Positions 17,872 to 50,900 of a stretch of 64,000 nt of DNA are shown in pieces. The stretch is from positions 21,530,986 through 21,594,985 of the forward strand of contig NC_135355.1 of NCBI RefSeq assembly GCF_051622035.1, in the 5' to 3' direction. The position numbers were made by a program, and so were the translations under genes. How positions within the stretch are numbered: the first letter of the stretch is position 1; every line of letters begins with the position of its first letter. The stretch comes from Arctopsyche grandis. Taxonomy: Eukaryota > Arthropoda > Insecta > Trichoptera > Hydropsychidae. The notes under the pieces are model-generated. The model made no database searches. It saw only the letters and a program-made list of their open reading frames with translations, and was not told the DNA's origin.

Positions 17872-20335
17872 GCTAAGCTAATAGAAATTTGTATTTAGCT
17901 ACGTACAATTTAAGAACGTTATCGAGTAAAGGAAGTGTGCTTGCATTAGAGAATGAATTAGAAAATATCAAATGGGATATAGTAGGACTTAGTGAAGTTA
18001 GACGGAAACAGCAAAACCAAATAATCCTAAAAAGTGGTAACTGTCTCTACTGGAGTGGCCTACCAAATGGTAGAATAGGAGGAGTAGGGTTTCTTATCAA
18101 TAAGAAAATAGAAAAAAGTATATTAGAAATAAGCAACATATCGGAACGTACACATATGCTATGTAGTATTAAGAATCTCGAGCAGGTACACTTGTCAAAT
18201 TTTCCAAGTGTACGCCCCCACATCTAGCCACTCAGACGAGGAAATAGAAGACTTCTACGAAAAACTGCAGGGCGCATACGGTAAAAGCCGCCACCACTTT
18301 AAAATAATCATGGGCGACTTTAACGCAAAAATAGGACTAAAGACAAATACAGAAAGAGCAGTAGGCAATTTTGGTACCGGCCAAAGAAACGAAAGAGGCG
18401 ATCGCCTCATAGAATTCGCAGAACTCAACAGGCTCTTTATCACTAATTAATTTTTCAGGAAAAACACAAACAATAAGTGGACTTGGGAGAGTCCTAAAGG
18501 AGACAGAAACGAGATCGATTTCATCCTAACAAATGCCATGCACTCCGTTAAAGACGTTAGTGTTTTAAGTAAAGTAGATATAGGTAGCGATCACAGATTA
18601 GTCCGTGCCAAGATGGCCATTAATATAAATTGCGAACGTAAGAAATTAATAAAAGGATGCAGTAACTCTCCAGATTTCGCTCAACTAAGGTCTAGGAAAA
18701 AGGAATTCGAACTCGAACTTGGAAATCGATACGGGAAATTAAACCCAGAAGCAGACATCGAGGAATTGAACACTATAATTAGTTCGGTTCTAACCTCAAC
18801 AGGTAAGAAATTAGTTGGACTCAGGAAACAGATTAAGCTAAGTAAAATTTCAGAGGAAACCAAAAATCTAATTAAGCATAAAAGGAAGTTAGATAGGGAT
18901 AATAATAAGCAAGAATACAATCTAGTAAATAAGGAAATTAAAAAGAGAATAGTCAGGGATGTCAGGGATTTTAACAGCAAGCTAATAGAAAATACCATTA
19001 AGAATAACCGTAGCCTGAAAAAGTGCAAACAGGATATTTTCTTAGGCAAAAACCAAATGATCGCAATCAGATCAGAGAGCGGAGTAATAATTAGGAATAG
19101 AGAAGAGATCATAGACAGAGTTTATACGTTCTATGCAAAACTTTACGAGAACAACAACGGTCAATTTCCCGCTCCGGAATCGACACACGGCCAAAGGGTT
19201 CCTGCAGTATTCCCTAGCGAAGTAGAGGCCGCGCTAAAAACTGCAAAGAACGGTAAAACCCCAGGGGAAGATAATATTCCCATTGACTTACTAAAATGTG
19301 GCGGCCCCCCCCTAATTAATATCTTAACTAGGCTTTTCAGCAAATGCATCCAGAACCAAGCTATACCAGAAGGATGGAATAACGCCACTATCATTTTAAT
19401 ACACAAAAAAGGCGACAAAAGTGATATCAAGAACTACCTACCCATTAGTTTACTTTCAGCGGTCTACAAGCTCTTCACGAAGGTTATTACAGAAAGGCTG
19501 AAGAATATCCTCGACGAGAACCAACCTATAGAACAGGCAGGGCTTAGGGAAAATTTCAGCACAATGGACCACCTCCAAGTATGTAGTTGGTGAACTAATC
19601 GAGCGCGCCAACGAATATCAACGGCCATCGTGCCTAGGTTTCGTCGATTATGAGAAAGCCTTCGATACAGTTAGCCATAATGCAGTACAAACACAGGGAG
19701 TGCCGGAACCCTATGTGGGACTGTTAGCTGCAATATATAAGAATGCCACAGCTTCGGTTAAAATTTTTTCAGGTACAGATAGATTTAGCATAGGAAAAGG
19801 AGTAAGACAAGGAGATAAAATCTCGCCCAAGTTATTCAATGCGGTGCTTGAGGGAGTTTTCAGGAACTTGGATTGGGATACAGCCGGAGTAAGCATCAAT
19901 GGTCGCTTCTTGAGTCACCTTCGGTTCGCAGACGATATAGTTTTAATAGCTCGTGATTCAGCTGACCTCTTAGATGAAGAGATAAAGAGACGTATGAAAT
20001 TAGGATGGAGTGCATTTGGACGGATGAACGCAGTTTTTAAATAAAAAATGCCGCTCTGCCTGAAGAAAAAGATCTTTGATCAATGCGTTTTGCCAGTGAT
20101 GACGTATGGATGTGAAACTTGGACACTGAACGGCAAGATGCTACATAAAATCTAATGCACTCAAAGATGTATGGAACGCTGTATGCTTGGCATAACGAAG
20201 AAAGACAGAAAGAGGAACACGTGGGTGAGAAGTATGACAAGAGTAGTGGACATATAACAGAGACGAGTGGAAGCGTGTTGGAGAGGCCTTCATCCAGCAG
20301 TGGATGGCGAATGGCTGTAAATGATGTATATACAT
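17872..20335 (+). pseudogene. RTE-type retrotransposon copy, inactivated
   Basis: Very close to the intact copy at 23358-26315 but broken: a frameshift near 18200, a TAA at 18448 where the intact copy has serine, a frameshift near 19585, a 12-bp deletion near 19686, loss of about 59 codons after the FADDIV block (near 19975), and a stop at 20041. Endonuclease ([26 protein letters not shown]) and reverse transcriptase motifs ([22 protein letters not shown]) remain. The 5' end is truncated just before the start of the endonuclease. Its 3' end GAATGGCTGTAAATGATG runs into a (TA)n tract. Between 18538 and 19593 the protein differs from the intact copy at only a handful of residues, so inactivation is recent. 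Confidence 0.92.
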
Positions 20336-23348: not shown

Positions 23349-26330
23349 TCATCATCATCATTTACAGCCATTCGCCATCCACTGCTGGATGAAGGCCTCT
23401 CCAACACGCTTCCACTCGTCTCTGTTTTGCGCAACACTCATCCATCTCATTCCGCACATTTTCCTAATTTCGTTCACCCATCTTCCTTGCGGTCTTCCTT
23501 TTACTCTTTTGCCTTCTCTCGGGTACCATTCAAGCACTTCTTTTGTCCACCTTTCGTCCATCCTCCTAGCAACGTGACCCGCCCATTGCCATTTCAATCT
23601 CTTCACTCTATCCACTATGTCCACTACCCTTGTCATATTTCTCACCCACGTGTTCCGCTTCCTGTCTTTCCTCGTTATGCCAAGCATACAGCGTTCCATA
23701 CTTCTTTGAGTGCATTGGATTTTATTTTGCATCTTGGCGTTCAGTGTCCAAGTTTCACATCCATACGTCATCACTGGCAAAACGCATTGATCAAAGATCC
23801 TTTTCTTCAGGCAGAGTGGCATTTTTGATTTAAAAACAGCATTCATCCGTCCAAATGCACTCCACCCTAATTTCATACGTCTCTTTATCTCTTCATTTTT
23901 ACTACCAGACATGTCAATTATTTGACCTAAATATAAATAATTATTTACTACTTCTACTGGTTTATCATCTAAGGGGATGCTATCAGGCATGCAATAACTA
24001 TTGAACATTAGTTTAGTCTTATCTACGTTAATTTTTAATCCTACTTTTCTACTTTCCCTGTCCAGCTGTGTTAGTCTGATAAGTAGGTCAGCTGAATCAC
24101 GAGCTACTAAAACTATATCGTCTGCGAACCGAAGGTGACTCAAAAAGCGACCATTGATGCTTACTCCGGCTGTATCCCAATCCAATTTCCTGAAAACTCC
24201 CTCAAGCACCGCATTGAATAACTTGGGCGAGATTGTATCTCCTTGTCTTACTCCTTTTCCTATGCTAAATCTATCTGTACCTGAAAAAATTTTAACCGAA
24301 GCTGTGGCATTCTTATATATTGCAGCTAACAGTCCCACATAGGGTTCCGGCACTCCCTGTGTTTTTAGAGCGTTAAGTACTGCATTATGACTAACTGTAT
24401 CGAAGGCTTTCTCATAATCGACGAAACCTAGGCACAATGGCCGTTGATATTCGTTGGCGCGCTCGATTAGTTCGCCAACTACTTGGAGGTGGTCCATTGT
24501 GCTGAAATTTGCCCTAAACCCTGCCTGCTCTATAGGTTGGTTCTCGTCGAGGATATTCTTCAGCCTTTCTGTAATAACCTTCGTGAAGAGCTTGTAGACC
24601 GCTGAAAGTAGACTAATGGGTCGGTAGTTCTTGATATCGCTTTTGTCGCCTTTTTTGTGTATTAAAATGATAGTTGCGTTATTCCATCCTTCTGGTATAG
24701 CTTGGTTCTGGATGCATTTGCTGAAAAGCCTAGCTAAGATATTAATTAGGGGGGGGCCGCCACATTTTAGTAAGTCAATGGGAATATTATCTTCCCCTGG
24801 GGATTTACCGTTCTTTGCAGTTTTTAGCGCGGCCTCTACTTCGCTAGGCAATACTGCAGGAACCCTTTGGCCGTGTGTCGATTCCAGAGCGGGGAATTGG
24901 CCGTTGTCGTTCTCGTATAGTTTTGCATAGAACGTGTAAACTCTGTCTATGATTTCTTCTCTATTCCTAATTATTACTCCGCTCTCTGATCTGATTGCGA
25001 TCATTTGGTTTTTGCCTAAGAAAAGATCCTGTTTGCACTTTTTCAGGCTACGGTTATTCTTAATGGTATTTTCTATTAGCTTGCTGTTAAAATCCCTGAC
25101 ATCCCTGACTATTCTCTTTTTAATTTCCTTATTTACTAGATTGTATTCTTGCTTATTATTATCCCTATCTAAATTCCTTTTATGCTTAATTAGGTTTTTT
25201 GTTTCCGCTGAAATTTTGCTTAATTTAATCTGTTTCCTGAATCCACCTAATTTCTTACCTGTTGAGGTTAGAACCGAACTAATTACAGTGTTCAATTCCT
25301 CGATGTCTGCTTCTGGGTTTAATTTCCCGTATCGATTTCCAAGTTCGAGTTCGAATTCCTTTTTCCTAGACCTTAGTTGAGCGAAATCTGGAGAGTTACT
25401 GCATCCTTTTATTAATTTCCTACGTTCGCAATTTATATTAATGGCCATCTTGGCACGGACTAATCTGTGATCGCTACCTATATCTACTTTACTTAAAACA
25501 CTAACGTCTTTAACGGAGTGCAGGGCATTTGTTAGGATGAAATCGATCTCGTTTCTGTCTCCTTTAGGACTCTCCCAAGTCCACTTATTGTTGGTGTTTT
25601 TCCTGAAAAATGAATTAGTGATAAAGAGCCTGTTGTGTTCTGCGAATTCTATGAGGCGATCGCCTCTGTCGTTTCTTTGGCCGGTACCAAAATTGCCTAC
25701 TGCTCTTTCAGTATTTGCCTTTTGTCCTATTTTTGCGTTAAAGTCGCCCATGATTATTTTAAAGTGGTGACGGCTATTATCGTATGCGTCCTGTATTTTT
25801 TCGTAGAAGTCTTCTATTTCCTCGTCTGGGTGGCTAGATGTGGGGGCGTACACTTGGAAGATTTGACAAGTGTACCTGCTCGAGATTCTTAATACTATAT
25901 AGCATATACGTTCCGATATGTCGCTTATTTCTATAATATTTCTTTCTATTCTCTTATTGATAAGAAACCCTACTCCTCCTATTCTACCATTTGGTAGCCC
26001 TCTCCAGTAGAGACAGTTACCACTTTTTAGGATTATTTGGTTTTGCTGTTTTCGTCTTACTTCACTAAGTCCTATTATATCCCATTTGATATTTTCTAAT
26101 TCATTCTCTAATGCAAGCACACTTCCTTCACTCGATAACGTTCTTACATTGTACGTGGCTAAATACAGGTTTCTATTAGCTAAGCTATCATCCATCGTCA
26201 CTCTTACCTTGTTGGAGGTTTGGATATTATTTTTCTCGCATTTATCCAAGATGTGTTGAGAAAAAGGCGGTACTTGAGAGAGATTTCCATTCAAGGAGTG
26301 AGTTCTTACCGCCATAGACTCTTCTCTGTG
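23347..26330 (-). mobile_element. RTE/BovB-like retrotransposon, near full length
   Basis: Contains one long open frame and ends on the minus strand in GGCTGTAAATGATGATGATG followed by (TA)n. A short-repeat tail instead of poly-A is typical of RTE elements. The 5' boundary is not sharp; sequence upstream of the first ATG (26315) has no second copy in the window to compare with. Confidence 0.85.
23358..26315 (-). CDS. RTE endonuclease/reverse transcriptase ORF
   Basis: Intact 985-aa frame. It begins with an apurinic-type endonuclease ([13 protein letters not shown] about residue 48, [16 protein letters not shown] about 189, GSDHRLV about 280). Reverse transcriptase follows: [18 protein letters not shown] about 555-570, [11 protein letters not shown] about 635, [20 protein letters not shown] about 727-735 with both aspartates kept, and then a C-terminal [15 protein letters not shown] and WAGHVARR region. 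The enzyme nicks target DNA and copies the element RNA in place. This type is often mis-annotated as craniofacial development protein 2-like. All key motifs are intact, so the copy could be active. The first ATG is used as the start; an ATG at about residue 41 (MDDS) is an alternative. Confidence 0.93.
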
Positions 26331-27042
26331 GTCAGCTTTGACAGATAGTCATCCTAGGTATCACTTGGATCACTTATGAGTTATTACATGCCATTTAACA
26401 GGGTTACTTTGTAAGTGAAAGTAGTTAGTTATGATAATAATAGATTAGCAATTGTTATACTACTTTTTTACAGATCTTTATCGTGAGACGCCTCTTTGGA
26501 GACAACGGATTTATATATGTGAGTGCGGTTTGCAATTTAATATTTTAATAATAAATTTAGTAAAGAATATAAAATTACACGAATTACTTTAATATAAATT
26601 AAATATGAAAAAGAACTATTAGACAGTTGGGAAACACCGTTTCTGTTTGCTATTATTCTATTAAGTAAAGTTCGTTAAAAATTTTTGTCTGAAAGCAATT
26701 ATGTGGAAGATTTATTGCTTCTGTGGGACCGAATTTTGACTGGCGAGCAGGGACCCTTATTTTTTTTGTATTCAGGTAGGGAGATGTATCTCGTTCGTAT
26801 ACGCTTTTGTAACTGACACAAAATTAACACAAAATTTTTCGCAATCACTGATATTAAAAACGCTGTTAACGGCCGATCGTCTGTTTATTTTTACACTTAA
26901 ATTATACTAGGATGCAATTAGTAAAATAAGTGATTAGATGGTTAAATTTTTAGATTAAATTTCGTGCAATAGCCGGGTTTAAGCGAGTAATAGCGGGAAG
27001 AACGCAGAAGCACGTCTTCCCCGCATGACACGAAAGACCGAA

Positions 27043-29309: not shown

Positions 29310-30775
29310 CATATGTACATAATGGAGTATCTCAACTTTTATCTCTCACATGTTTGGATATTGCAAACAAGAAGCTTTCCCAACATTTAATGGAAAAAAA
29401 AAACTTTACTATCTGGGACGTTTCAATACTACCGCGAAAATAGTTGGGAAAGCTTCGGAAATTGATTCGCTTCAATCTGAGTGGTGTTGAGAGCTTTTAA
29501 AATTCAATAAGGGGCGCTATGAAGGAGCGGCTGAAAGTCGACATTCGAAAGGTCGTGCGCTTGGTTTTCAATCAAAAGGAAAATACCCTTCGGAAAATGG
29601 ACTCTAAGACTCTTGAGACGTGTTCCATTATTGACACGTGTGAAAATATAGTAATTTATACTATATAAATACTCAGATAAAAATGTCAAGCTATTTGATC
29701 GCCATTTTTTCTTTTTTTAACATTCCTTTAGTACCATGAAAGTTTTCGACTGGGTATATTGATGAATAACCAAGATTCGCATATTTCGCTCAGGCCTAAT
29801 GTCAATGAACATACGCGTTAATGCATATTAATTAAATCAATTCTGAATATCTAAAAAAATCGAACCGAAGTAAAATGCACCACGATTCTAAAATTATCAA
29901 AAAGTATAAGCCTTGATTTTAAATCGCCATATACTTTCTATATTAAACTATATATATTCCAAAACCATCCTTTGAACGTGAACGGACAAAAAACTAGTTA
30001 TTATTTAATGAACTCGTTTTTATAGTATAACACTAGTAAATTAAATAGTTTTGTTTAATACATCCTTATACCTTCATAAATGAACTAACCGTATTGCCAG
30101 GCGTTGCTCGGGTGAGTGAAATTCAGATAAAAATATATGAAACCCGACCCCGTCCCTTCCACGAACTGTCCACAACCTAAGGCAAATAAGATACAATGAG
30201 ATTTTAAAATATATTTAAAGTTGAAAATATTTCCAAATAAATTTAACGTTTCTTCCATGGAAAAATTGTGATTTAAATTTAATCGATATCTAAATCGTTA
30301 TATAAATCCTTAAAAATGAAATATAATCGAATCTAGAGAATCCGAAATCAAACTACAGATGAATAATATACATTTTAATAATAAAAACTTTTCTTTAATT
30401 AAGTGCAAAATACGATTTTTTTCTTTTTATATGTTGGAATTATTTTGAAATTATGAATACCCTTCTTTCTTGATTTTCAAATATAGTAAGTGTAATACGG
30501 TGGATTTTATGATAGATATACATATGTATGTACATACATATATGCCCAATTAAAAAAGTAAATATATTTACATATGTAGCTGTGAAAAATATTGCCCGAA
30601 CATGATTACGAATAGTAATGATTACAATGAAATAAAAGTGGCATGATTCCAAACCTAAAGTGATCAGTAAATTAAATAAAAAGTAAATATTTTCTTATTC
30701 TTACAAGTGTATCTACACAGAAGATAGATTGCCAATAAAAAAAAAACAGCCCTGCCGAGACAGTGGGTTAACACT
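29310..30775. other. Intergenic, no gene seen
   Basis: AT-rich sequence with a TACATATGTA simple cluster at about 30525; no supported gene. Confidence 0.55.
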
Positions 30776-30847
30776 GCCGTGACCAGGAGTCGAACCTGGG
30801 TTACTACGGCCACAACGTAGGGTCCTAACCACTAGACGATCACGGCT
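30776..30847 (-). tRNA. tRNA-His (GTG)
   Basis: The minus strand folds as a canonical 72-nt tRNA: acceptor GCCGTGA/TCACGGC with discriminator A, D arm with AGTGGTTAGGA, anticodon stem CTACG/CGTAG around the loop TTGTGGC (anticodon GTG), and T arm with GGTTCGACTCC, which is also a good B box. A run of ten T follows 28 nt downstream, a Pol III terminator. No intron. The flanks CAGCTCTG (5') and CAGGGCTG (3') can pair around the whole tRNA, as at the second copy. The tRNA part is identical to 42127-42198. Confidence 0.93.
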
Positions 30848-31500
30848 ACCAGAGCTGATATTATTTCGAATGAAAATTCCAGTTTTTGTATTAAGCCAAC
30901 TAATTGAAATCACTTTCACTTCGGGCAGACTTGGCCGCGCCTGCGACGAATTGGGTAATTCGCTTGTAACGATCTCATTTACCAATTGATACATGCAACA
31001 TTGGCGTGCTCGTATTTATTTATTTTTTTGAATGGCAAACAACAAAAAAAAATATATACATATACACATATACATATATCACCGGGGATGATCTAAATTG
31101 AAGTAAAACTCATTCATCCCGCCGTCATCGCCCTCCCATTTTATCGGCCTTTCTATCTCTCTTCGTGTTTTTGGCAAAATTGCTTCACATTTTTTCGTCG
31201 AAATTCCAAAACTGGTCCTTTTTTATTCAAGTACATTTTTCTTCAGAGACGTATAAAAATTTCATCGATGACGCTCGTCAACGATGTCACATTATAAGTA
31301 TGTGTGTAGCTTTTTTACTCTATCTAATACATATTCCCAAACATTCAAGAAGCAATGTAAATTGATTTCATTATGTGGTTATTCAAAACTACACAAATAA
31401 TATTAATTACCAATGAATTCGTTCAACTTACATAGTATCAATAGTTTGTGACATATGTATTTTTCAAATAAATAAAAAAGATTATAAATAATTTAAGTCG

Positions 31501-41360: not shown

Positions 41361-42126
41361 TTTACAAAAACACTGAGAGGTCACCCTCTCAATCTCCAAA
41401 TATATACATATATATTACAAAATAATCAGAGAATCTTTCTTTTCAAACAGAAGCCAACTTTCAAATATTCGTCTTAGTACTGATGAACTTCATTATTTTT
41501 TTCACTTTTCATTTTGCACACGCGGGCTAGAAACTTAGATATGATCAAAAATAATTTTATAAACTGCATTAAATAGGTTCACAAATAGAATATATGTATG
41601 CATGTACAAGAATAGTCGAACGATATGTAACAAATATTTATAATTTGCTTATTGCCGCCCCCAAAACATTCAAATTTCAAGACACTGGAATTTATGATAA
41701 AACAAACACGAAAGGAAGATTGCGAACAAATGCACATAGAAAAAATTGTTATTAAAATTTAATAAAGTATTCATTGATGATAATAATAGCGCCAACTATC
41801 ATAAGCTTTTTACATTACATTTTTGATATTCTTCTAACATAAATCCGAAATTCAATTTGGCTTTCTTTTTAAAACAAAAAATAAAGTTATAAAAAAAAGG
41901 AAACAAATATGTACAAAAAATTGCATGGAAAATACTGTTGATTTTAGATTTTTTTATTCAAAAGTTATCTTTGTTACCAATATTCATAGTTCTGATGCCT
42001 CAATATACATACGTAGAAAGAATTTATTTTCAGTAGTTGGAAAAAGTTTTTCCCAGATGCAATTTGTTCGCTTTGTAGTCGGAAAAGCCAAATAAAAAAA
42101 AGGTTCCGCCGGGACAGTGCTAACAC
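41361..42126. other. Intergenic, no gene seen
   Basis: AT-rich; the part adjoining the tRNA carries the T-run terminator and paired 3' flank. Confidence 0.5.
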
Positions 42127-42198
42127 TGCCGTGACCAGGAGTCGAACCTGGGTTACTACGGCCACAACGTAGGGTCCTAACCACTAGACGATCACGGC
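42127..42198 (-). tRNA. tRNA-His (GTG), second copy
   Basis: Identical in all 72 nt to the copy at 30776-30847, with the same strand, anticodon GTG and A/B boxes. The 3' trailer GTGTTAGCACTGTCCCGGC resembles the first copy's trailer and is followed by GGAACC and a run of eight T. The 5' flank CGGTTCCG is complementary to CGGAACC in the trailer, so a stem can enclose the tRNA as at the first copy, but with different base pairs. Confidence 0.93.
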
Positions 42199-43855
42199 TA
42201 TCGGAACCGTTGAGAGCACCTGGTTTATAGCAGTAATTTATATTTTGGAATCAGAACAACTGATTCAACCGGTTACACTCTATTACACTACTTTCACCTG
42301 TTACAATTACCATGAAATGTCCTACAATTCATTCTAAAAATTTATAATTAGATTTTAGTTCTTGAATAATATACAAATATTTCAAAAACAAAATAGATCA
42401 ATGAAATAAATTCCAAATTTAAAAAAATCAAAAAGTCTATGTACTTTATATTTAGTATATATTCGTATTGTATGCAAGTATCAAATGATAATGATACCGA
42501 TTGTATTTATTAAATAACACGTATATACATTCAAAACATATAATGTGCTAATACTAAAAAAAATTTCAAGGCATTCCACGTGTCTAGCCGATTTATTTAT
42601 TTGTGTATATATATGTATATTTATTAGAATTTAAATACTTACATGTTTATAAACAATATTTGTATCTTGGGTCATGCTATACATACAAGCTGTTATAATG
42701 CAACTCGTGAGACGTATTTTTTACAAGCCTCTTCTAGCTTGTTTACCCTGAAATATAATTATAGAAATCAAAAGTCAGTTCCAGAACTTTATTACCCGTG
42801 TATTCTATACATTAAAGCTATTCTATCGTAAGATTTTCTTGGAAATGGCAACATTATTTCAAGCGCATTTTTCCTACATCAGGGAAATGGAAGATTTTAC
42901 ACATGTACATATATCAATTTATACTGTAAAATTTTAAATAGCACTTTGCATATGTGCATACGTACACACATATGTACATATTTGGATGGTTTATATAAGA
43001 TGAATATTAAAAAAAAAACAATGTGAAAAAATCTCTAAAAAATTAGCGCATAAATAAAGAAACAAATTAAAAGCAATGCGATAATAATTAGCTATATATA
43101 CCCGGATATTTCAATTTTTCAATTACAGACACGTTTTAACATAATAATTTCATTTATTTATTTTTTTTTGAATTTACTGTATTTATTTCTCTGATATTAC
43201 AATGTTTTCATATTAAAGTGAGGTCTTCAAAATATACTTCGAGTCCTAATCGCACATATTTGGACAATGGCTCATTAAAACCGAAAAATATTATGTAGCG
43301 ACATCTTGCTAATATTACTTATTCGTGCATGTAGAAATGTAAAATAGTTCTAGTATTTAGTTTATGAACTTTAATTATAAAACAAATTAAAAATATGATT
43401 ATAATTATATGAATATTTTATTACCAAAAAAATAGTTTTATTTGTCATTATAAATATATACATATTGAAAATTTAAATAATATTTTTAATACGTATCGAG
43501 ACATCTATTGACAGTTTATATAAACTGTGTTGAAATATTTATAGTATTTCATACATAAATTTCAACAAAGTAACAAAGAGTGACTTAAATTTATAAAATC
43601 CAATAAGCTGAATAAATTCTTCCAATTTATTACAAGTGTATTCTGTTTTATTCGTTATCGACGAGCAGATTATGCAAGTATAATACTTCTTCGACAGTAT
43701 TATAGCTATTATAACAGTAATTCATCATGCAAGGTAAAATAGTTAAAAACACGACGGCAGGATATAAGATGGCGACATCTCATGGCTGAAAATTTTAAGA
43801 TTGGTCAAAATTGGCGATGTTCTGTGCTGCTGTCAGTAAAAAAACGTAGCCAGGA
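42199..43855. other. Intergenic, mostly no feature
   Basis: Holds repeat E copy 2 (42603-42727) and otherwise very AT-rich sequence without genes. Confidence 0.5.
42603..42727 (-). repeat. Repeat E, copy 2
   Basis: Reverse-complement partner of 27094-27205, sharing at least four long blocks in order and differing by insertions of about 10 bp. Confidence 0.8.
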
Positions 43856-47957: not shown

Positions 47958-50900
47958 TCACTCAAATAATGCTAGTATATCGTCCGATGAAGGTGCCCGG
48001 TGTGGGTGTGAATGAGCTGAGCTGGAGGATGAAGGCGGCGTGGCGAGGAGATCGCCCAAGCCACCAGGGGGGTCCAAATACGAAAGTAATTCCATGGGAT
48101 CGACTACATTATCTGGTAATAGCTAAAATTTAAAACAAAATAAAATAAGCCTCGTAAAATCACAAAATTCAACTAGTTAAAAATGTCTAACAAATATTAT
48201 ATATGTATGTATATATGTATATGATGGTACTTACATTTAAGCCTTCGTTAGTTCCTTCACCATCTATAACAGCCGCAGGATCAAAATTAAGGTCAGAAGG
48301 AATATCGACATCAGTGAGGGTTGATGAAATATGCTGTTGCTGATCGGCGGAGGGGGGTACGCTGGGTGGACCACCAGGGGTGTGCGCAGAACCAGGAGTG
48401 TGTGCACCACCTCCGCCGCCTCCCCCACCAGCACCAGGTGTGTGTGGAGTGTGGGGAGTATGAGGTGTGTGTGGCATCTAAAACATAATTAGATTCATTA
48501 TCAAATACACATTTTTTTTAACAACATAATTAAATATATATTGAAGATATATCAAGGAAGCTTACCTGTTCGTTAAGGCTTTTTTCCATTGCATTCAATG
48601 GATCCAAGGAATTGACACTATCACTTAAATGCGACAGAGGACCACCTCCTCCGGAATACTCATTGCTACCAGGACCGGTGGAGTTAACGCCAAATTCATA
48701 ATTATTTTGGCCATTTCCACTTCCTGATCTTCCATGACCGTTGCCTCCATTGCCATACGATGATGTCATCATTGAACCATTTGCTATGGTATTCATGTCA
48801 GGTGGAAGATAAGGTGAGAGAGCTTGATTCATATCCCAACTGTTCATTGTGGGAAGAGTCATCGAGCCCGGTGAAATTGCTTTTCCTCGTTTACCAGCAC
48901 AAGAATCACTACTGTCATCTTCCTGCTATAAAATATAAAAAAAATATGAGTTACCACGAATTTTTATTTTGTCTATCAAGCTTAAACTACAATTTAAACA
49001 ATATTTACCTTGATTCCGGGAACGGTTGGGTTTTTAGCAGCTTTCCAATTAGCTCCACTATCTATCGTGACTTCTTCGACATCAGAATTATTTAATGTAT
49101 TTAAAATACCCCACATATACTGATCTACTTCTAATCCTTCTAATTGTGCAGGTTTACTGAAAAATAAAATAAATAAATGACATAAACCTTTTATTTTCAT
49201 ATAATTTTATAATAAATTTATCAGAATTTAATTGAACTCACTTGCAAACAGGACATCTCCAGGAGCCTCGCTCACAATTAAGTTGTAGATATGATTCCAA
49301 ATCAAAACATTGAATATGTTTGCAATCGTGCCCTCGGGCAGGCAAAGTTATTCTTTTAAATGTTATCGGACACTTCAAAGAAACTTTTAACGCAGTCTGC
49401 TCCACAGCATCTCTATCTCTATCTTGCATTAATGGACCACCACCACCGTTGCTAGTGCTAGTTTGACTAAAGTTGCGTTTAATTTTGGCAATGCAATGGT
49501 CTGCTGTTAATAGCCTTTTACGCAGAAGTCCTTGTAAAACACTCCTGACGCTCGGCCTATGCACTAATTGCAGAACAAATAGATGTGACTGCAAAAAAAA
49601 TTAAATAAATTAAAATTTTATTCGTTATTCATTTTAATTGGATAGTATGTGTATAATGTAGCAATACTTACACAACAGCATGCTGAAACGGTAATTTGTA
49701 TCGTGTTTCGGCCTGGCTGACACACATCTTTCAGGTACAAAGGTTTATGAGATGTTTTATTTTCACCACGATCGATAATTAAAGGTGTAGCGTTAACAGA
49801 AACTTGCACACTTGCTGGCCAATTGGTATTCATTTGCCTATCTTCATGGTGGAAACATTTTAATTGGAGTTCTAAATCAGATCTGAAAAATAGTGATGCC
49901 AATTAAATGGAGTTATGTTTGAATAGTTACTATTTAATACAGGATAAGTTAGGTATATTTACCTCCACATTAAAGTTTGGTGAACTGTCGGTTTTAATTG
50001 GAAAACGTGATTGCTTACAGCCAAGTTATGTTCTAGCCTAAACGGTGGGAGGATAATTCCATCTCTAACAGGGAAAGTCAAGCGCAACTCATCATCTAAA
50101 AAGCAAAAAAATATTTTTTAATAATAACTTTCACAGTTTAATTTTTATATTGATTAATAAGTATGAGAGCAATACTTACTTTGCATTGGCAAGGGAGGTT
50201 TGAGTTCGTTGAAATTTGGTTTGACATCAGCATTGGGACTAATATACGGAGGCATACTACTAGCAGGTGTTAATGGTGGAGTAGGATTCCCAGGTACGGG
50301 ACTATGCTGATACGTCATATTGCTTCTCATGGTACCAACTTCAGGTTGGAATTGACCAGCAGCTGCATACTGCCCGCTCTGGCCGACATACGCACCACCG
50401 TTGCTCGATTGGTGGTGACCAGCAAACTGACCAGGACCCATTCCTCCATTACTGAAGTATTGTCCTTGTGCGGAGTAGGGTGGTGTATTCTGTCTCATTC
50501 CGGCACCTCTCATACTTGCAGGACCAAAGTTCCCGCTCGGTCCTAGTGGTTGCTGGGGAGGATATTGGTTTTGGAAACCCGGTCGGCCATTGCCGTAACC
50601 GGTGGGATATTGAGGTGTGTTGGGATTGAAACCAGGCTGCATTGTGCCTGGTCCAGTATTTATGTATCCCTGTTGTCTCTTTTGATTCATGTGCATTGCA
50701 GGTGAGGGATAAGGTGCAAGCCTCCGAGGATAATTACCGGGACCCATTTTTCCCATGGCGGACATATTCGACATCTGACCAGGACCCATTTGACCTGGCA
50801 TCATGTTGGCGTGCATACCTCCCATGCCCATATTCGCCATTTGGGCCATAGGATTCATATTAGGATTCATATTAGGATTCATACCGTTCATGGCTGGGTT

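Follow-up and report, generated by a model that had tools for sequence, protein, structure and literature searches.

In the TMERs of a mouse gammaherpesvirus, a tRNA-like unit is followed at once by a hairpin within one Pol III transcript, and the hairpin arms of a TMER-like miRNA precursor are about 20 nt long. Y RNAs and stem-bulge RNAs carry a terminal stem beside a U-tail. Thg1 adds G-1 to tRNA-His, and the identity of this tRNA depends on its exact 5' end. For eukaryotic pre-tRNAs, PMC9705548 gives a bulge rule for RNase P and describes a paired region beyond the bulge.

Nuclear tRNA trailers are usually seen as short throw-away ends; the tRNA-His genes of Arctopsyche grandis, however, keep a long structured one. 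Their predicted precursors are like ordinary pre-tRNAs, as described in PMC9705548, in having a bulge near the mature ends and then a paired region outward; since both elements are already described there, the outer stem alone is of a known kind. Unlike in ordinary pre-tRNAs, the 3' strand of the stem lies 18–22 nt out, with a hairpin and a conserved linker in between, and the stem covaries among paralogues; of the isotypes checked, tRNA-His has this arrangement and the five others do not. The order of tRNA and then hairpin is common to TMERs, but here the gene is a normal cellular one; the terminal stem and U-tail are common to Y RNAs and stem-bulge RNAs, but here a complete tRNA is enclosed. 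Judged by sequence comparison, the new parts are the trailer hairpin and the invariant linker, together with the limitation to His among the isotypes checked. No report of a structured tRNA-His trailer was found among the titles and abstract openings that literature searches listed.

The window, that is, the whole 64 kb stretch of DNA analysed (C1:21530986-21594985), belongs to a genome of 475.7 Mb in 189 contigs. It has two tRNAs, both on the minus strand, at 30775-30846 and 42127-42198, on which ARAGORN and Rfam agree; ARAGORN names both tRNA-His. A sequence-only reading of this DNA had called the two tRNAs identical, which holds for all 72 nt, and had located the second gene correctly and the first one base off, at 30776-30847. 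At the Rfam gathering thresholds, RF00005 alone matched in the window; no second RNA family was found, and the Y RNA family gave no match. The two copies have the following features:

30775..30846, minus strand: tRNA-His (GTG) copy 1 (ARAGORN; Rfam RF00005, 60.3 bits)
30850..30857, minus strand: copy 1 leader strand of the outer stem, CAGCTCTG (from sequence)
30847..30849, minus strand: copy 1 GTA, unpaired, between outer stem and tRNA 5' end (from sequence)
30762..30775, minus strand: copy 1 putative trailer hairpin AGTG-TTAACC-CACT, the discriminator A first (from covariation and folding)
30755..30761, minus strand: copy 1 conserved linker GTCTCGG (from alignment)
30747..30754, minus strand: copy 1 trailer strand of the outer stem, CAGGGCTG (from sequence)
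30737..30746, minus strand: copy 1 T-run of 10 T, presumed Pol III terminator (from sequence)
42127..42198, minus strand: tRNA-His (GTG) copy 2 (ARAGORN; Rfam RF00005, 60.3 bits)
42202..42208, minus strand: copy 2 leader strand of the outer stem, GGTTCCG (from sequence)
42199..42201, minus strand: copy 2 ATA, unpaired, between outer stem and tRNA 5' end (from sequence)
42116..42127, minus strand: copy 2 putative trailer hairpin AGTG-TTAG-CACT (from covariation and folding)
42109..42115, minus strand: copy 2 conserved linker GTCCCGG (from alignment)
42102..42108, minus strand: copy 2 trailer strand of the outer stem, CGGAACC (from sequence)
42094..42101, minus strand: copy 2 T-run of 8 T, presumed Pol III terminator (from sequence)

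Read in the orientation of the transcript, copy 1 has CAGCTCTG-GTA on the 5' side of the tRNA and CAGGGCTG on its 3' side, giving 8 pairs, one of them G-T, and copy 2 has GGTTCCG-ATA and CGGAACC, giving 7 perfect pairs. Among the seven pairs common to both, three differ on both sides and one on one side. These pairings, the difference of most paired positions between the copies, and the T-runs directly after the 3' strands (10 T and 8 T) had all been claimed in the sequence-only reading and are correct. The same is true of its claim that the flanks differ and yet are complementary, but not of their immediate adjacency to the tRNA: the strands are offset by 3 nt on the 5' side and by 20 (copy 1) or 18 (copy 2) nt on the 3' side, where the gap is made up, in both copies, of a short hairpin AGTG/CACT, whose A is the discriminator base, and the linker.

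A search of the genome with the 72-nt tRNA gave at least 11 tRNA-His genes, nine identical and two at 99%. Six of them are on C10 within about 110 kb; C1 has three, of which two are those of the window, and C7 and C3 have one each. The six C10 genes, at 14.76-14.87 Mb, are on both strands, and ARAGORN found no other tRNA in 140 kb there; likewise, in 200 kb around the nine copies outside the window, it found no tRNA beyond those nine tRNA-His. Since six of the 11 genes form one cluster, the independent lineages are fewer than 11, and the identity of the tRNA body in nine of 11 points to conversion or to strong constraint acting on that body. An intact tRNA-His is encoded by every copy, with the hallmarks of a nuclear gene: a GTG-anticodon cloverleaf, A73, a G-1 that is not encoded (the base preceding G1 is A in all 11), and a T-run terminator, with T4 at 25-31 nt downstream in 11 of 11. 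These matches do not look like a tRNA-derived repeat or pseudogene family, in which many decayed, dispersed copies would be expected.

All 11 genes have the same order of elements: leader strand, NTA, tRNA, trailer hairpin, linker TGTCNYGG, trailer strand, and T-run, with the NTA shortened to TA only in C1c, the C1 copy outside the window. The longest uninterrupted pairing between leader and trailer spans 5-8 bp, 3-5 of them G-C; the pairing trailer strand lies 18-22 nt past the tRNA, and the T-run directly adjoins this strand or starts no more than about six bases away. As in pre-tRNAs generally, unpaired bases by the mature ends are followed by a predicted helix, the 3' gap here being the hairpin and linker. 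The trailer hairpin has 4-5 bp, or 7-9 bp in an alternative form. Within the linker, TGTC and GG are invariant in 11 of 11, and the base between the two halves (C in seven, A in two, T in one, G in one) is the sole one at which all four letters occur.

In a MAFFT alignment of the 11 loci, double changes that keep pairing occur in seven of eight outer-stem pairs and three of four hairpin pairs, 10 of 12 in total, the seven of eight being owed partly to the placement of C1c, where MAFFT is off by one base, and to the two outermost positions. These two pairs are unpaired in seven of 11 copies in the MAFFT register and in eight of 11 in a register set by hand, in which C1c was moved one base because it is without the N before TA. 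The covariation score is 0.373, compared with 0.218 (sd 0.029) in shuffles, none of 500 of which reach it, and with 0.088 to 0.127 in slid registers. In the hand register, four of the six core pairs have double changes, whether C1c is included or left out, and 64 of 66 core cells are paired across the 11 genes; when trailers are swapped among copies, the mean is 58.6, and 2 of 20,000 swaps match the natural pairing. For seven loci chosen by hand as representatives (C10a and C10d being kept of the C10 copies and the others dropped), pairing is found in 40 of 42 cells, a count that 4 of 5,040 permutations reach. C1c and C3 each have five of six core positions paired; the longest stem of C1c, CCTCGT/ACGGGG, is in a different register, and the shared register gives GCCTC/GAGGC, 5 bp. 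The RNAalifold consensus includes the six core pairs and the trailer hairpin. Several copies carry G-U pairs at differing positions, as expected for an RNA helix.

Is such an arrangement peculiar to tRNA-His? As controls, we took 47 tRNA genes of the same genome: 13 of 13 matches for Asp, 10 of 21 for Val, 10 of 14 for Glu, 8 of 13 for Gly, and 6 of 10 for iMet; 13 additional matches in the Gly search were the Asp genes. In all 47 controls, the first TTTT starts 0-9 nt past the tRNA, compared with 25-31 nt in the 11 tRNA-His genes. Up to the T-run, the leader-trailer stems of Asp, Val, and Glu have at most 5 bp and at most two G-C pairs; if the T-run is ignored and 40 nt are taken, A-T-rich pairing can reach 10 bp (in one Asp gene, with one G-C). 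By this comparison of sequences, the long structured trailer is limited to His among the isotypes checked. The short trailers of the controls also appear to be isotype-specific, with GTTTCTTTT in four of six iMet genes, an initial A in 10 of 10 Glu genes, and ATC in six of eight Gly genes.

The selection for a pre-tRNA leader-trailer stem that the sequence-only reading had suggested from two copies is, then, supported by the covariation, by the presence of the layout in 11 of 11 genes, and by control isotypes without a comparable trailer. Other tRNA-His copies with unpaired flanks had been named there as the finding that would speak against it; all nine further copies found have the stem, and the view that these are not two ordinary duplicates also holds good. 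The sequences compared are all from one genome, and both the conservation of pairing and the specificity for His among the isotypes checked are to be read as a within-genome comparison.

The DNA around the genes has been kept less well. Over 50 bases upstream, the C10a, C10e, and C10f pairs have identities of 0.82, 0.78, and 0.76, and C10a and C10b of 0.72; the remaining comparisons give 0.48 to 0.66, with a mean of 0.57 and a maximum of 0.70 for random sequence, so that only C10 copies exceed the random maximum. Beyond the T-run, downstream identity is 0.50 to 0.72, about as in random sequence. The 11-nt leaders have identities of 0.55 to 1.00 and the trailers of 0.50 to 0.96, and therefore the transcribed part is better kept than its surroundings. 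The C3 trailer is similar to most others only at the level of random sequence, and the most diverged copies retain mainly the layout and the linker.

Several possible relatives of the trailer were considered. An origin as a decayed copy of the 3' end of the tRNA is rejected, since in 10 of 11 genes the alignment scored no higher than shuffled sequence (C1c, 28 of 1000). Nor is the linker supported as a dispersed element: followed by a T-run, TGTCNYGG occurs too often (2060+2681 times, and 1531+1001 times when the pattern is reversed). When a B-box-like string is placed ahead of linker and T-run, the pattern, which misses C10c and C1c, gives 30 matches, corresponding to nine tRNA-His genes and 12 other places, and its reversed version gives three. 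The 12 places, which lie outside tRNA-His genes as judged by the pattern coordinates, are likely due to chance; two of them, C5:2113628-2113680 and C11:23957351-23957401, have tRNA-His-like spacing. Exact tRNA-His and trailer patterns run against viral and other genome contigs found no tRNA-His, and 14 matches in viral contigs, none with a T-arm motif before it, are taken as chance. A TMER-like miRNA precursor is ruled out by the 4-5 bp of the hairpin (7-9 bp in the alternative form). The trailer strings of the window, CACTGTCTCGGC at 30747-30775 (copy 1) and CACTGTCCCGGC at 42102-42127 (copy 2), resemble, except in the seed, the miR-92 consensus printed in PMC4421800. Given the different seed and the absence of precursor arms, this is probably a coincidence.

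What, then, would be the role of the stem? We propose that it forms a cage around the intact tRNA-His that orders the processing of the two ends, with 5' cleavage first and the precursor La-bound and protected; we regard this as reasonably probable. Pol III, assumed to start upstream of the leader strand, at position -9 or farther, would end at the T-run. The primary transcript would then fold so that an outer stem, about 6 bp long (5 to 8) and ending at or near the U-tail, encloses the cloverleaf, and the trailer hairpin would stack on the acceptor stem, discriminator base first. The short unpaired NTA (TA in one copy) would leave the RNase P site open, the hairpin would enclose the tRNase Z site in a helix, and the 3' end would be shielded by the outer stem together with the U-tail. 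Given an open RNase P site, a helical tRNase Z site, and a shielded 3' end, 5' cleavage would be expected to precede 3' cleavage, and the precursor would stay La-bound and protected. According to PMC6470698, G-1 is added to eukaryotic tRNA-His once leader and trailer are gone. Since the addition follows removal of the ends, the exact 5' end matters, and it is here that we infer a link to the cage, whose most likely function would be that of a His-specific precursor fold ordering end processing. Because tRNA-His is the tRNA needing an added 5' base, the idea of a dedicated precursor fold that orders end processing becomes testable, as does the question of whether pre-tRNAs can act as switches.

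Folding of the 11 copies (15 nt of leader, the tRNA, and 45 nt downstream) gives the plain cage as the lowest-energy fold in six; C10d folds without the outer stem, and C10f, C10b, C1c, and C7 keep the outer stem and lose the cloverleaf, in energies that leave out modifications, tertiary contacts, and proteins. The modelled probability of the cloverleaf acceptor is 0.96-1.00 in the mature tRNA or with a short trailer and falls to 0.02-0.51 with the natural trailer. When the leader is removed, the acceptor stays weak in eight of 11 (0.02-0.36) and is fairly sound in three (0.80-0.95), a poor match to a cage that would open once RNase P cuts. The drop with the natural trailer could be read as a sign of a bistable precursor, in which the linker TGTC-N-YGGC would let the three-way junction branch-migrate into an isomer with both ends unprocessable, a factor choosing between the forms. 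As the linker can pair with both the 5' and the 3' acceptor bases, an alternative fold B is possible, in which YGGC would pair with the 5' acceptor GCCG and GTC would lengthen the hairpin via the 3' acceptor GGC; 76 of 77 linker-to-acceptor cells (seven pairs, 11 copies) can pair, and variation through all four letters is confined to the base between the halves. When each is enforced, fold A, with the cloverleaf acceptor, minus B is -0.9 to +2.3 kcal/mol, the best A and B folds thus lying within about 2.3 kcal/mol in all 11, with A lowest in seven and B in four. However, B is the simple branch-migrated form in just six of 11 constrained folds, other parts refolding in C10f, C10b, window copy 1, C1c, and C3. 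When the seven linker bases are shuffled, competition is similar in most copies, the natural linker ranking 13 to 118 of 200 and failing to beat the shuffle mean in C10e and C10a; shuffled whole trailers compete too, with a mean competition below the natural one in 11 of 11. The complementarity, moreover, was noticed post hoc, and since the tRNA side is invariant, its pairs yield no covariation. The invariance of the linker thus suggests a two-state precursor that the energies do not prove, and we consider bistability unlikely. Somewhat less likely again is a built-in RNA switch, in which the conserved linker would copy the acceptor 3' strand and branch-migrating helices would pass from a cloverleaf that can be processed to a locked isomer and back; if true, the cell could gate its supply of tRNA-His post-transcriptionally.

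The stem might instead serve Pol III termination or La loading alone, with no part in the order of processing, and the closeness of the trailer strand to the T-run in every copy would fit this; yet the controls have a T-run after a short trailer without any such stem, and the hairpin and linker would be left unexplained, which makes this explanation improbable in our view. We are just as doubtful that the transcript is a separate structured RNA, which the sequence-only reading had offered as its alternative in the form of a tRNA-derived family, part of it remaining unprocessed as a stable RNA or its trailer giving a functional fragment. Most trailers are more alike than the outer flanks, and the layout is kept throughout, but every copy holds an intact tRNA, the window has no second Rfam family at the gathering thresholds, and the hairpin is much too short for a miRNA precursor. 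An origin without selection on RNA, through template-switch DNA palindromes or through gene conversion that takes short flanks along with the tRNA, could draw on the nine identical tRNA bodies and on the upstream DNA that C10a, C10e, and C10f have in common. Conversion, however, would copy the arms and not alter both sides in step, and template switching yields perfect complements, whereas several copies have G-T pairs at different positions; in addition, linker and register are conserved, and the control tRNAs are without the feature. Such an origin is therefore very improbable.

The window contains other features besides the tRNA-His genes. On the plus strand, an open frame at 187-2409 with DUF4371 and hAT dimerisation domains is a transposase. 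An open frame of LINE type that codes for endonuclease and reverse transcriptase domains lies at 23358-26348 on the minus strand, and a relative of it, split over two frames, at 18451-20044 on the plus strand. Long TA-rich simple repeats, seen as YI runs in the frames, occur at about 16.5, 20.4, 23.1, and 41 kb. An SP-RING (zf-MIZ) exon is found at 49238-49600 on the minus strand, and the open frames neighbouring it presumably resemble a ZMIZ/tonalli gene.
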